DNA of 37,341 nucleotides from a virus. Of the stretch, positions 2,718 through 36,999 are shown piece after piece. The translations under genes and the position numbers were made by a program. The stretch covers positions 1-37,341 of IMG/VR virus record IMGVR_UViG_3300027508_000017; one strand, 5' to 3'. The notes beneath the pieces were generated by a model, which saw only the letters and a program-made list of their open reading frames with translations, was not told the DNA's origin and did no database searches. Every line of letters begins with the position of its first letter. The first letter of the stretch is position 1.

Positions 2718-3334
2718 TAACAGCAGAACAATTCAAACATTTATTCCCAAGAGCACAAGATCCAGCATCTTGGGCTACATCAATGAATAATGTGTTTCCA
2801 ACATATGAGATTAATACACCACATCGTGTTGCAGCTTTCCTCGCACAGTGTGGTCACGAGTCTGGTGGTTGGACAGTATTTGAAGAAAACTTAAATTACT
2901 CCGCACAAGGTTTATGTAGTATTTTCAAGAAGTATTTCCCTACTCTTGAATCAGCGACACCTTATGCACGCAAACCTGAAATGATTGCTAACAAAGTTTA
3001 TGCTAATCGTATGGGTAATGGTCCAGAAGAATCAGGCGATGGATGGAAATATCGTGGACGTGGTCCGATTCAATTAACTGGTAAAAACAATTACATGCAG
3101 TTTGCCAAAGATATGTTTGACGACTGGCAGAACTTATTTGATAACCCAGATTGGGTTACTGCTGATAGAGACTTCGCATTGATGTCAGCTATTTGGTTCT
3201 GGAATAAAAATGCATTAAACAGAGAAGCAGACGCAGGCGATATCAAGACAATGACACGTAAAATCAATGGTGGATACATTGGTCTTGACGATCGCATTAA
3301 ACACTACAATGAGGCTATACATTTACTTACATAA
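2714..3334 (+). CDS. GH19 chitinase-like endolysin
   Basis: A 206-residue glycoside hydrolase family 19 domain covering nearly the whole protein. GHESGGW (47-53) carries the catalytic acid Glu49, with a second conserved Glu in EENLNYSA (57-64). YRGRGPIQLTGKNNY (113-127) is the hallmark substrate-groove motif. Phage GH19 enzymes cleave the peptidoglycan glycan backbone. There is no signal peptide, so release would need a holin, which is not evident here. A related domain lies inside gp5 in this window, at about 28% of the way through that tail protein. This stand-alone copy is most likely the lysis enzyme. Coupled to phoH and to the exonuclease gene by short overlaps. Confidence 0.9.
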   Translation: MITAEQFKHLFPRAQDPASWATSMNNVFPTYEINTPHRVAAFLAQCGHESGGWTVFEENLNYSAQGLCSIFKKYFPTLESATPYARKPEMIANKVYANRMGNGPEESGDGWKYRGRGPIQLTGKNNYMQFAKDMFDDWQNLFDNPDWVTADRDFALMSAIWFWNKNALNREADAGDIKTMTRKINGGYIGLDDRIKHYNEAIHLLT

Positions 3335-3987
3335 TGAAAAATTTTATACATCATGATTTACCCAAACTTGAACGTGACACAAAACCCGATGGTACGAGGG
3401 TATATAAAACGCCATCGGGTCGAGCCTATCCAAGCATCACCACAGTTACAGGATTGCACTCAAAAGCAGCAATCATCGCTTGGCGAAAAAAAGTCGGAGA
3501 AGCAGAAGCCAACCGAATCTCAAATCGAGCAGCAACACGTGGAACAAGAATTCACACCCTCTGCGAATCCTATTTGCGTGGAGAGTCTGCTGAACCAGAT
3601 ATATTCGATCAAGAAGTTTACAGGTCGTTAATTCCACATCTAGACAAGATAAATAACATACATGCGTTAGAAGATCCGCTTTATTCAGATCATCTGGAAG
3701 TTGCAGGAACAGTTGATTGTATTGCAGAGTATGATGGGAAACTTGCAGTTATTGACTTTAAAACTTCTGCAAGAGTTAAGACTCGTGATAATATTTACGG
3801 ATACTTTATGCAAACATCTGCTTATGCAGTTGCTTTCGAAGAACGAACAGGAATTCCTGTTGGTAAGTTAGTTATTATTATGGGTGTTGATGACAACGAA
3901 CCATTAATCTTTGAAGAGAAGAGAGATGACTGGATCGGAGAATTTAAAAAGTTGCGACAAGATTATAAACGAATAAAGAATATTTGA
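3334..3987 (+). CDS. RecB-like PD-(D/E)XK exonuclease
   Basis: A 217-residue nuclease. Motif elements in order: H74 in RGTRIHTLCESYL; VAGTVDCIAEYDG (123-135) with acidic Asp128; VIDFKTS (139-145) giving the D-x-K core (Asp141, Lys143); and YFMQTSAYA (157-165), the QxxxY motif of RecB/lambda-exonuclease-type nucleases. Such proteins in T4-like phages are annotated as exonucleases and may act in recombination or host DNA degradation. TAATG overlap with the endolysin gene. The following promoter overlaps its stop. Confidence 0.8.
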   Translation: MKNFIHHDLPKLERDTKPDGTRVYKTPSGRAYPSITTVTGLHSKAAIIAWRKKVGEAEANRISNRAATRGTRIHTLCESYLRGESAEPDIFDQEVYRSLIPHLDKINNIHALEDPLYSDHLEVAGTVDCIAEYDGKLAVIDFKTSARVKTRDNIYGYFMQTSAYAVAFEERTGIPVGKLVIIMGVDDNEPLIFEEKRDDWIGEFKKLRQDYKRIKNI

Positions 3988-4012
3988 CATTAATGAGAAA
4001 GCAGGGTATAAT
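3984..4012 (+). promoter_or_regulatory. consensus sigma70-type promoter upstream of tmRNA
   Basis: TTGACA (3984-3989), exactly 17 nt, TATAAT (4007-4012): both hexamers match the sigma70 consensus perfectly. Expected start of transcription is around 4019, about 150 nt upstream of the tmRNA acceptor piece. It should be served by unmodified host polymerase early in infection. Confidence 0.85.
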
Positions 4013-4163
4013 GGTATTAAATGCTGAGATTGCACCAAATATAATTATATTTGAACAGAAAGAACTTCCTGAAGGATGGAAAGAGGGAGATATGTTTAAA
4101 GTTGTTATTGGTGCGAACGGACAAGTTACGCTAATCAAGTCAACAAAAGATGGCGTAATGTAA
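4011..4163 (+). CDS. small ORF, 50 aa, between promoter and tmRNA
   Basis: An ORF from ATG 4011 to TAA 4161-4163. The product (MVLNAEIAPNIIIFEQKELPEGWKEGD..., then MFKVVIGANGQVTLIKS) has protein-like composition and a plausible small beta fold, but I recognise no family. The ATG lies inside the -10 hexamer of the strong promoter, so that promoter cannot produce an mRNA containing it; read-through from upstream would be required. An internal ATG at 4092 is preceded by a good GAGGGAG ribosome site and could give a 23-residue peptide. The stop abuts the tmRNA acceptor piece. Confidence 0.4.
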   Translation: MVLNAEIAPNIIIFEQKELPEGWKEGDMFKVVIGANGQVTLIKSTKDGVM

Positions 4164-4165
4164 GA

Positions 4166-4229
4166 ATTGCTGTATGAAGCAATGAGAAAGGTGTTCTGGA
4201 CGTGGGTTCGACTCCCACCACCTCCACCT
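4166..4229 (+). ncRNA. ssrA: permuted tmRNA, acceptor (3') piece
   Basis: This segment carries the tRNA-like 3' half of tmRNA. TTCTGGAC (4194-4201) is followed by a T arm with stem GTGGG (4202-4206)/CCCAC (4214-4218) and loop TTCGACT. The acceptor strand CACCTCC (4219-4225) and discriminator A4226 follow. The acceptor strand pairs with GGGGGTG (4287-4293), which begins the coding piece downstream, with a single G-U pair. The gene is therefore circularly permuted. The genome encodes CCT, not CCA, after the discriminator, so CCA would be added after processing. The 5' boundary is approximate; GCTGT (4169-4173) could pair with ACAGC (4329-4333) as part of helix P2. Confidence 0.88.
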
Positions 4230-4286
4230 GAACATATTCCGAACCGAGTTATCGGTAGCAAAGCGAAACGCTGAGTATGTTCAGTT
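4227..4286 (+). other. intervening segment of the tmRNA precursor
   Basis: About 60 nt separate the acceptor 3' end from the coding 5' end. CTGAACATA (4228-4236) is perfectly complementary to TATGTTCAG (4276-4284), extending the acceptor stem past A4226-T4286 and one mismatch. Inside are two hairpins: ACCGA/TCGGT (4243-4247/4252-4256) and AGCG/CGCT (4262-4265/4269-4272). Known two-piece tmRNA precursors have such a segment removed by tRNA-type processing. Confidence 0.75.
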
Positions 4287-4460
4287 GGGGGTGCCATGGT
4301 TTCGACAGGGCAATAAGTAACAGAGTGGACAGCACGACACAGAGAGTCGTAAAAAGTAAACAACGTAAACGCAAACGACGCACAGTTCGCATTAGCAGCC
4401 TAAACACTGCTTAGGGTTTCGGTAGGTTTCCTCGTAACAGAATAACCTACCACGAATTAG
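4287..4460 (+). ncRNA. ssrA: permuted tmRNA, coding (5') piece with tag reading frame
   Basis: Starts GGGGGTG, then the near-universal tmRNA 5' signature TGGTTTCGACAGGG (4297-4310). A stem ACGAC/GTCGT (4334-4338/4346-4350) leads to an A-rich stretch and the resume codon GCA at 4371. The stop codon lies in the loop region of helix P5, GCAG (4395-4398)/CTGC (4407-4410), as in E. coli tmRNA. Downstream is a well-formed H-type pseudoknot: stem 1 GGTAGGTT/AACCTACC (4421-4428/4444-4451), stem 2 TCGT/ACGA (4432-4435/4452-4455). The 3' end is approximate. tmRNA with SmpB rescues ribosomes stalled on broken mRNAs and tags the peptide for proteolysis. No smpB is seen in this window, so host SmpB is presumably used. 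Confidence 0.9.
4371..4403 (+). other. tmRNA proteolysis tag ANDAQFALAA
   Basis: Ten codons from GCA 4371 to GCC 4400, then TAA 4401-4403, encode ANDAQFALAA. The AND start and ALAA end match bacterial tags; E. coli is ANDENYALAA. The terminal LAA is the determinant recognised by ClpX, and the AND..A segment corresponds to the SspB-binding region. Phe before ALAA is common in betaproteobacterial tags as I recall them. Confidence 0.9.
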
Positions 4461-4569: not shown

Positions 4570-4770
4570 ATGAAATCGATTATCGCATTAGTAATGTTGT
4601 CATTCGCAACTGTTTCTTTCGCAGCAGAACCTGCAAAGAAGCCAGAAGCAAAGAAAGAAGAAACAAACTGCGTAACTAAGGACAAACAAGGTAAATGTCC
4701 TCCTGCACCTAAGTCTGAGAAACCTACTCCTAAGAAAGTAGAGCCAAAAGCTGACGCAGCGAAAAAGTAA
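4570..4770 (+). CDS. small exported Ala/Lys/Pro-rich protein
   Basis: A 66-residue protein with a textbook Sec signal peptide: MKS start, hydrophobic core IIALVMLSFATV, and cleavage after VSFA (about residue 18). The mature part is about 48 residues of Lys, Pro, Ala and Glu with two Cys in TNCVTKDKQGKCPP (31-44), which could form one disulfide in the periplasm. It resembles low-complexity periplasmic proteins of bacteria more than phage proteins and may be host-derived. Function unknown; one could imagine a role at the envelope, but nothing shows this. Confidence 0.7.
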   Translation: MKSIIALVMLSFATVSFAAEPAKKPEAKKEETNCVTKDKQGKCPPAPKSEKPTPKKVEPKADAAKK

Positions 4771-5700: not shown

Positions 5701-5711
5701 AGGTGCAAAAT

Positions 5712-6269
5712 ATGATGCAAAAATTGAATTTACAGGTAAAAGAAGAACACTCACGTCATTCGTTCTTCTTGTTAATGGAAGAAGTTACATTAGCAACTTG
5801 TAAACAAGCAGTAGAATGGATCTTTGAAAACAATTTCCAAGAAGATCGTGCTGACTTACTTAACATGGTAATCACTTCTCCAGGCGGAGATTTAAATGCA
5901 GCATTTGCATTAGTTGATACTATGCGTGGTTCAGCCATTCCAATTAGAACAATTGGTCTTGGTCAAATCGCTTCAGCTGGTCTTATGATTTTTATTGCTG
6001 GCGAAAAGGGAAATCGTATTCTTACACCGAATACTTCTATTCTGTCACACCAGTATTCATGGGGTGCGTTCGGCAAAGAACATGAGTTGTTCGCAACAGT
6101 CAAAGAGTTTGACTTGACGACCAAACGTATGATTAGTCATTATAAAAAATGCACAGGATTATCTGAGAAGAAAATTCGTGAAGTGCTTTTACCTCCACAA
6201 GATATGTGGTTATCAGCAACCGAAGCAAAAGATTTGGGGTTATGTGATGCAGTTAAAGACATTAATTAA
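5712..6269 (+). CDS. clpP: ClpP-like serine protease
   Basis: A 185-residue protein with the whole ClpP fold layout. ITSPGGDLNAAFALVD (54-69) contains the oxyanion-hole glycines. GLGQIASAGLMIFIAG holds the catalytic Ser88, NTSILSHQ holds His113, and PPQDMWLSATEAKDLGLCD holds Asp164 and the ClpP end motif. ATG 5712 was chosen over an upstream GTG at 5703 because AAAGG (5698-5702) is correctly spaced for it. ClpP forms barrel-shaped tetradecamers fed by ClpX/ClpA. No Clp ATPase is encoded in the window. In phages ClpP could process capsid or tail proteins or remodel host proteolysis. The tmRNA, whose tag ends ALAA, lies about 1.3 kb upstream, suggesting a functional link. Confidence 0.88.
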   Translation: MMQKLNLQVKEEHSRHSFFLLMEEVTLATCKQAVEWIFENNFQEDRADLLNMVITSPGGDLNAAFALVDTMRGSAIPIRTIGLGQIASAGLMIFIAGEKGNRILTPNTSILSHQYSWGAFGKEHELFATVKEFDLTTKRMISHYKKCTGLSEKKIREVLLPPQDMWLSATEAKDLGLCDAVKDIN

Positions 6270-8220: not shown

Positions 8221-8492
8221 TGAACGCTAAATTGAATAAAATTGTATCTGCAAGTCATATGGGCGACGTAAAGGAAGTGCAAGATCTTTACATTAGCCTA
8301 TTGAATGACAAGATGAAACTTGACAAATTTTTCAGTTTGTATCTTGATAAATTCGGTAACAAAATGGATCCCGAAAAAACAGATACTAACATCTGGAAAC
8401 TTTATAATATTAAATCGAAAGAATATTCTGAACTTAATCATGCTATTAGAACAGCCAATTACTACCTCAATAAACACACTACGAATGTTTAA
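8220..8492 (+). CDS. small phage protein, 90 aa
   Basis: TAATG overlap with the previous gene. The 90-residue product is largely helical (MNAKLNKIVSASHMGDVKEVQDLYISLLNDKMKLDKFFSLYL...) and ends NYYLNKHTTNV. It sits directly upstream of the gp33 homologue, overlapping it by 8 nt, so it probably belongs to the replication/late-transcription operon. No family recognised. Confidence 0.6.
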   Translation: MNAKLNKIVSASHMGDVKEVQDLYISLLNDKMKLDKFFSLYLDKFGNKMDPEKTDTNIWKLYNIKSKEYSELNHAIRTANYYLNKHTTNV

Positions 8493-8700
8493 AACATCAA
8501 ACGAATTTTCTCTTTACATTGAACAGGTTGTCAATGAAAAGCGTATCACTCATATGGACGCTATTCTTGAATACTGTAAAGAAAACTATCTTGAACCACA
8601 AGACATTGCTAAGTTAGTCAACAAGTCTTTGAAGGAAAAGGTAGCACTCAATATGCAAGAACTTAATTATCTCCCTAAGAAAGCACAACTGGATGTCTAA
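8485..8700 (+). CDS. 33: gp33-like late-transcription coactivator
   Basis: A 71-residue protein from ATG 8485; upstream in-frame starts lie inside the preceding gene. The sequence SLYIEQVVNEKRITHMDAILEYCKENYLEP, then AKLVNKSLKEKVALNMQEL, follows the core of T4 gp33 (IEKMVEE....Y.EA...FLEEN.IPE..FAKFI...I.EKI). gp33 links host RNA polymerase to the sliding clamp gp45 and, with sigma factor gp55, activates late promoters. It is shorter than T4 gp33 (112 aa), as in cyanophage versions. TAATG overlap with gp59, as expected from T4 gene proximity. Confidence 0.75.
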   Translation: MFKTSNEFSLYIEQVVNEKRITHMDAILEYCKENYLEPQDIAKLVNKSLKEKVALNMQELNYLPKKAQLDV

Positions 8701-9314
8701 TGGACGGATTCAAAGCGTATAAGTATTACATAGCTGTCAGACTCCATTTCACTAAAGACAATTTCGATGTATTTAAAAATCGTGGTAACCTAAAGGGAAC
8801 ACGTGATGCATTTAATGCTAGGAATGATCGTCTTATGTTTGAGAAACTTGCAAGAAAATATCCAGTAGACAAAGAACTAATACAATACTATGTTGCAAAC
8901 TTTGCTTACGGTAGCGATACTGCGGTTTATTCAATGGAAGAAGCAGATAGTAATTTAATTGAGTGGAATCGAAGAAAGCAGAGTATTACTAAAATCTTTT
9001 CTGATGATTGCAATAGAATTTTATTGGATGCTTGCAAGAACAAATTTAAAGAAGATTCTATTTTTAACTTGACAAATAAAGGTTATTGTAGTATACTTAA
9101 ATTATTCCTTGGTAATCAGATAACACTTGAAACTGTCAGAATTATTGACGACTTTCATCCTATGATTGATTCTTGGAAAACTAACTCATCAATGATATTA
9201 CTTTGGGAAAATGAAATACGTAGAATAGAAAAATCTAAAGGTTTCGTGAAATACGAAAATGTTAAAATTAAAAAGGTTTTTGATAATTTCTTGGAAGAAG
9301 TAAAAGAGTTATAA
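8700..9314 (+). CDS. 59: gp59 helicase-loading protein
   Basis: A 204-residue, all-helical basic protein. MDGFKAYKYYIAVRLHFTKDNFDVFKNRG (1-29), then FNARNDRLMFEKLARKYPVDKELIQYYVANFAYG, follows T4 gp59 (217 aa: G..VYKLYL..K.H....YDV.KY......A...RRDKYFFQKL..KY...EL...F.SNLVAN). gp59 binds forked DNA and gp32 and loads the gp41 helicase on the lagging strand. Position between gp33 and gp32 matches T4-like synteny and supports the call. Confidence 0.85.
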   Translation: MDGFKAYKYYIAVRLHFTKDNFDVFKNRGNLKGTRDAFNARNDRLMFEKLARKYPVDKELIQYYVANFAYGSDTAVYSMEEADSNLIEWNRRKQSITKIFSDDCNRILLDACKNKFKEDSIFNLTNKGYCSILKLFLGNQITLETVRIIDDFHPMIDSWKTNSSMILLWENEIRRIEKSKGFVKYENVKIKKVFDNFLEEVKEL

Positions 9315-36630: not shown

Positions 36631-36999
36631 ATGCCAGTAAGTGCAACAGGATTTAAAATTTCAAATGGAACAGACCTTAATGGTTTGTTTTGGACATGGC
36701 AGGGCGATACAGGAAATCGTGGTGTAAACGATAGTAACGGTAACTGCGGTTGGGCATGCGCATGTAACGCATGTAACTCAGCATGTAACTGTAACTGCGG
36801 TAACTGCGACGCTGCCGATTTAGCGTTTAACGTACACGTTACTGACTGGAGACTAAACGTCTTCCGTAACACTTCATACAACGATGGTCTTCGTCACGAC
36901 TCACAAGAACAGTCAATGGGTCATTTCAAATATTTGCGTGTAAACTGTAACTGTAACTGCGCATGTAACTGTAACTGTGCTTGTAACTGTAACTGCTAA
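36631..36999 (+). CDS. Cys-Asn repeat protein, candidate fibre-tip/adhesin
   Basis: A 122-residue protein starting one base after the tail fibre stop. The N-terminus MPVSATGFKISNGTDLNGLFW is like small phage tail-fibre-associated proteins. Residues about 37-60 hold one Cys cluster (CGWACACNACNSACNCNCGNC), and the last 19 residues another (VNCNCNCACNCNCACNCNC split by Ala). There are 17 Cys, about 14% of the protein, mostly in Cys-Asn or Cys-Ala dipeptides. The spacer (61-103) is ordinary (NVHVTDWRLNVFRNTSYNDGLRHDSQ). I know no described family. It may be metal-binding, disulfide cross-linked or beta-stacked; no function shown. Confidence 0.75.
   Translation: MPVSATGFKISNGTDLNGLFWTWQGDTGNRGVNDSNGNCGWACACNACNSACNCNCGNCDAADLAFNVHVTDWRLNVFRNTSYNDGLRHDSQEQSMGHFKYLRVNCNCNCACNCNCACNCNC
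36940..36996 (+). repeat. TGTAAC hexanucleotide array in the gene 3' end
   Basis: A run of TGTAAC/TGTAACTG-type hexamers, interrupted by GCATGT and GCTTGT, encodes the C-terminal Cys-Asn tract. A related array occurs at about 36741-36810. Six-base slippage would add or remove one Asn-Cys pair without a frameshift. Confidence 0.8.

Follow-up and report, generated by a model that had tools for sequence, protein, structure and literature searches.

The stretch of DNA analyzed here (the window) is a linear virus record of 37,341 bases that carries a complete tmRNA gene of the rare permuted (two-piece) type on the (+) strand at positions 4164–4455. T4-type genes elsewhere in the window encode baseplate proteins, gp33 (PF16805), gp59 (PF08993), a gp32-like ssDNA-binding protein, and PhoH, and the term T4-like therefore holds. 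The gene sits in a slot ordered PD-(D/E)XK nuclease, tmRNA, gp33, and gp59, and most of the closest metagenomic loci anchored on the exonuclease show this order. The features of the locus are as follows:

3334–3987 (+): PD-(D/E)XK-type exonuclease marking the upstream side of the tmRNA slot
3984–4012 (+): sigma-70 promoter with perfect consensus TTGACA-17-TATAAT (12/12 matches)
4164–4228 (+): acceptor piece of the tmRNA (5′ end approximate; ARAGORN, Rfam, alignment)
4168–4173 (+): acceptor piece, P2 5′ strand
4202–4206/4214–4218 (+): acceptor piece, T stem
4207–4213 (+): acceptor piece, T loop
4219–4225 (+): acceptor piece, acceptor 3′ strand
4226–4228 (+): acceptor piece, discriminator A and CC
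4229–4286 (+): intervening segment, a predicted long hairpin continuing the acceptor stem, predicted to be lost in processing
4287–4455 (+): coding piece of the tmRNA (3′ end approximate; ARAGORN, Rfam, alignment)
4287–4293 (+): coding piece, acceptor 5′ strand
4297–4306 (+): coding piece, TGGTTTCGAC
4329–4334 (+): coding piece, P2 3′ strand
4371–4403 (+): tag reading frame ANDAQFALAA-stop (ARAGORN, relatives' tags)
4399–4455 (+): P5 helix (4399–4415) and first pseudoknot (4421–4455)
5703–6269 (+): ClpP-family serine protease (PF00574, E = 2.3e-30; triad Ser91-His116-Asp167)
8320–9314 (+): gp33 (late-transcription coactivator, PF16805) and gp59 (helicase loader, PF08993), marking the downstream side of the slot

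Directly 3′ of the tmRNA, positions 4570–4770 hold a lysine-rich ORF of 66 aa that apparently encodes a signal peptide, is present in some relatives, and has no family match. At 36631–36999, an ORF of 122 aa containing a tandem Cys-Asn repeat (CNCNC...) adjoins the tail-fiber gene and has no PHROG match.

The initial annotation had read the locus as a circularly permuted tmRNA gene of a T4-like phage and had named beforehand a covariance-model search as one means of refuting this reading. This search returned strong matches: Rfam RF01850 (beta_tmRNA) scored 129.3 bits (cut-off, 84; E = 2.5e-39), and the merged permuted tmRNA model RF04321 (tmRNA_permuted; PMC11915505) scored 127 bits (cut-off, 47; E = 1.1e-24) in a full-length match that revealed no difference in kind. 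Given these scores and E-values, the tmRNA match is not due to chance. ARAGORN made a single permuted tmRNA call on the window, with the same tag, ANDAQFALAA, as in the initial annotation, and the proposed layout proved correct at every coordinate. Specifically, the 3′ half comes first (T arm GTGGG-TTCGACT-CCCAC at 4202–4218, CACCTCC at 4219–4225, and A-C-C at 4226–4228) and is separated by 58 bases from the 5′ half (GGGGGTG at 4287–4293 and TGGTTTCGAC at 4297–4306, with the tag frame thereafter). The acceptor strands pair across the intervening segment, the predicted fold lies 3.4 sd below dinucleotide shuffles, and the tag frame closes with a Clp degron end followed by the stop codon. The encoded 3′ end of the acceptor piece is ACCT (ACCA in most distinct relatives), which means that the final A of CCA has to be added. 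Two tmRNA fragments of about 60 and 170–190 nt, with approximate outer ends, are plausible from this arrangement.

Permuted tmRNAs were called by ARAGORN in more than 100 fetched loci, many of them overlapping or near-identical, and a permuted tmRNA match was obtained for 28 of 30 chosen relatives (above the cut-off in 27). The length of the intervening segment among the phage relatives ranged from 21 to 287 nt. To analyze covariation, we aligned 69 distinct phage tmRNA genes and used slid versions of the helices as controls; the aligned genes were selected by ARAGORN, which favors the acceptor and T-stem counts and affects P2 and the pseudoknot less. The acceptor, T stem, P2, and pseudoknot stem 1 all displayed compensatory changes, with far lower values for the slid controls. 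P2, which joins the two pieces, showed 96% pairing and 64 compensatory cells, whereas its slid versions did not exceed 61% and 10 cells. For pseudoknot stem 1, pairing was 92% and compensatory cells numbered 62, against no more than 52% and 25 cells when slid. Pseudoknot stem 2 (4 bp) was 73% paired with 1 compensatory cell, while P5 was kept across relatives with few compensatory changes. Covariation thus backs only half of the H-type pseudoknot that the initial annotation put forward after a P5-like helix (stem 1 but not stem 2). The G3·U70 alanine identity pair was found in all 69 distinct phage genes. In a second extraction based on sequence anchors and blind to pairing (49 distinct phage genes), each acceptor pair was standard in 47–49 genes and each T-stem pair in all 49, with two of the 49 rows looking misplaced (a second L101 entry and L169, which is one-piece according to ARAGORN). 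The tag starts with AND in 63 of 68 relatives and ends with LAA in 66 of 67 distinct relatives, despite synonymous codon variation. Judging from its sequence, the window tmRNA is very probably functional.

The promoter at 3984–4012 is the sole perfect TTGACA-17-TATAAT in the window, with 0.067 expected per shuffled window. Promoter matches at 11–12 of 12 positions were present upstream of the tmRNA in 36 of 123 relatives vs 3 of 615 shuffles. A 50-codon open frame (4011–4163) lies between the promoter and the tmRNA; the −10 box and the first ATG of this frame overlap.

A 2022 study had already reported two-piece tmRNA in the T4-like aquatic phages Melnitz and Mosig, in 53 of 18,146 phage genomes, 50 of them of aquatic origin, and in 17 of 47 related contigs (PMC9004378), which removes the novelty in T4-like phages implied by the initial annotation. 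The same study described an early promoter for the Melnitz tmRNA and raised the idea of selective host-protein degradation (PMC9004378). Like Methylophilales phage Melnitz and Pelagibacter phage Mosig, the window represents a T4-like aquatic phage with a permuted tmRNA in the slot between the PD-(D/E)XK nuclease and gp33/gp59. However, the window tmRNA is best fitted by the beta model and that of Melnitz by the alpha model, the tags of Melnitz and Mosig (ANDNYVPVDYALAA and GEDNFALAA) differ from the window tag, the window has no glutamine-riboswitch match (Rfam), unlike the Melnitz/Mosig system, and no ClpP is annotated in the examined Melnitz and Mosig stretches. The T4-like Pseudomonas phage pf16 likewise encodes a part of the ssrA-ClpXP pathway, an SspB-like protein; this component is an adaptor, unlike the window tmRNA, and no tmRNA was found in pf16 by the authors of that study (PMC5587285). 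Papers on Far-T4 and methane phages and a PhoH search yielded nothing further on tmRNA. The window tmRNA is already known in kind; the feature for which the open-access PMC papers searched gave no report is its tight linkage to a phage ClpP.

Lineage-model fit assigned the window clade to the beta type, Melnitz, Mosig, and some loci (e.g., L044) to the alpha type, and the cyanophage loci L181 and L193 to the cyano type. Phage permuted tmRNAs are one kind of gene with several lineage types, and from the lineage-model fit alone, the host is probably a betaproteobacterium. The window tmRNA shares with betaproteobacterial two-piece tmRNA (RF01850) the best lineage model, the layout, G3·U70, and an encoded CC without the final A, but it scores 129 bits rather than the approximately 295–305 bits of three bacterial genes, has a longer intervening segment, and encodes ANDAQFALAA in place of the bacterial tag ANDERFALAA. 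Its identity to bacterial ssrA is about 66% at best, compared with up to 99% for phage relatives. In a weakly resolved tmRNA tree (187 columns), the sampled bacterial ssrA formed one group (support 87) with the window clade outside; the sample, picked by sequence pattern, consisted mainly of Rhodocyclaceae and Accumulibacter, and the host lineage may be missing from it. Class- and order-level bacterial searches yielded no close ssrA, a nucleotide search of phage records gave short matches only, and the window tag occurred in none of 84,980 bacterial and archaeal species genomes. As for the comparison with ssrA proposed at the outset as a check for transfer, recent host transfer is unsupported in our sample, and recent host capture of the tmRNA was rejected on the grounds of the low bacterial identity and the placement of the window clade.

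Synechococcus phage BUCT-ZZ01, whose host is S. elongatus PCC 7942, carries a permuted beta-type tmRNA with the tag ANDETFSMALAA on the minus strand of ON615601.1 at 116891–117291 (L314:4892–5292). This gene is missing from the annotation of the record, in which a hypothetical CDS overlaps it, and a ClpP-family gene lies elsewhere, at about 75.5 kb; L075 is likewise a tmRNA phage with ClpP elsewhere. Cyanophage-type permuted tmRNAs (L012, L075, and other loci; L163–L207) encode long tags (ANTSDSAANNIVAFSRSTVAA and variants) that end in VAA or ATA, not LAA. One-piece tmRNAs are present in viral contigs L162, L168, L169, L191, L192, L196, L201, L202, and L204, with tags ANNNLHFEQRLAA or ANNNLHFQQRLAA and the common start GGGGGTGCCATGGTTTCGACAG.

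About 1.3 kb downstream of the window tmRNA, with other genes between, ORF 5703–6269 matches Pfam CLP_protease with 106 bits (cut-off, 20.2). Ser91-His116-Asp167 are aligned, and the triad is retained in 58 relatives, with one ambiguous residue. The ORF falls below the NCBIfam ClpP equivalog cut-off (TIGR00493; 68.5 vs 308.6 bits) and is therefore termed ClpP-family; under this criterion, it does not qualify as an orthologue of bacterial ClpP. A tmRNA was found upstream of ClpP in all 44 loci with at least 3.5 kb of upstream sequence (43 by ARAGORN and L099 by Rfam), and in the 43 ARAGORN loci, ClpP lies downstream at a distance of 1.05–2.5 kb. Among exonuclease-anchored records, ClpP was present in 11 of 30 with a tmRNA and in 1 of 20 without, a contrast that is confounded by relatedness and short records. 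In the close relative L014, a tRNA gene (L014:4094–4164) lies between the exonuclease and ClpP, where relatives have the tmRNA. No report of a phage tmRNA paired with a phage ClpP was found in the open-access PMC papers searched.

Taken together, we consider it likely that the two-piece tmRNA encoded by this phage is a working one and that its gene is an old resident of its slot in T4-like aquatic phages and not a recent capture. The gene, conserved structure, conserved tag, promoter, and synteny are shown by the sequence analysis; the biochemical steps are inferred as follows. The early sigma-70 promoter would give rise to one precursor RNA, which host RNase P would cut before G4287, host 3′ enzymes would trim after CC, and the CCA-adding enzyme would complete with the last A. 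The two pieces, held together by the acceptor and P2 helices, would be charged by host alanyl-tRNA synthetase via G3·U70 and delivered by host SmpB and EF-Tu to ribosomes stalled on broken mRNA of host or phage origin. ANDAQFALAA would then be added to the unfinished protein, and the tagged protein would be degraded by a Clp protease, with ClpX probably supplied by the host and ClpP by either host or phage. Each of these steps follows from what is established for tmRNA. Summaries of this biology are available (PMC11915505 and PMC9004378). Phage-encoded SmpB was detected in 0 of 30 records, with control genomes positive, so host SmpB would need to serve. Two benefits to the phage would fit: ribosomes could be kept free during mRNA degradation, and the amino acids of tagged proteins could be recycled.

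One alternative is a decoy, a phage RNA that would block trans-translation in the host by binding SmpB or ribosomes, as has been proposed for the tag-less tmRNA-like RNA of mycobacteriophage DS6A; a phage RNA with a tRNA-like domain only does inhibit tmRNA (PMC4131195; PMC11915505). However, a decoy would have no need of the tag frame, the stop codon, the LAA end, or the first pseudoknot, each of which is conserved here, and we find this role quite improbable. We give still less credence to passive host DNA, in the form of contamination or of an ssrA copy that was captured recently or derives from integration. Integration is common at tmRNA genes, and ssrA fragments occur in phages (discussed in PMC9004378), but this gene is complete, occupies the identical slot in many separate contigs, and stands apart from the sampled bacterial ssrA in identity, tree position, and tag, as described above, making such an origin highly implausible.

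The ClpP-family neighbor could be a capsid-maturation protease unrelated to the tmRNA, as PHROG and NCBIfam head-maturation models also match ORF 5703–6269 and ClpP-like prohead proteases are known (PMC5964084). Yet the Pfam CLP_protease and Clp subfamily models outscore the head-maturation model, the gene lies outside the head cluster, and a separate T4-type prohead protease (PF03420) is found elsewhere in 10 of 13 long records, which renders capsid maturation an unlikely role. As an extension of the working-tmRNA explanation, the phage ClpP may replace or join host ClpP under host ClpX, such that tagged proteins would turn over faster and amino acids would be recycled. The tmRNA at all 44 ClpP loci with sufficient upstream sequence, the retained triad, the separate prohead protease, the preserved LAA end, and the distant ClpP genes of tmRNA phages BUCT-ZZ01 and L075 argue for such a module, whereas 19 of the 30 tmRNA-bearing exonuclease records (many of them short) show no ClpP, L014 has ClpP without a detectable tmRNA, and the two genes in the window are not adjacent. 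Moreover, the ClpP loci belong mostly to one clade, so shared ancestry alone could explain a linkage that otherwise suggests a possible phage tag-and-degrade pair; we hold the module to be possible, if rather doubtful. The linked ClpP nonetheless turns the question of what a phage tmRNA is for into a concrete and testable pairing of tag and protease. If this pairing is true, a matched tmRNA and ClpP would give the phage partial control over the tagging and degradation of unfinished proteins during infection.
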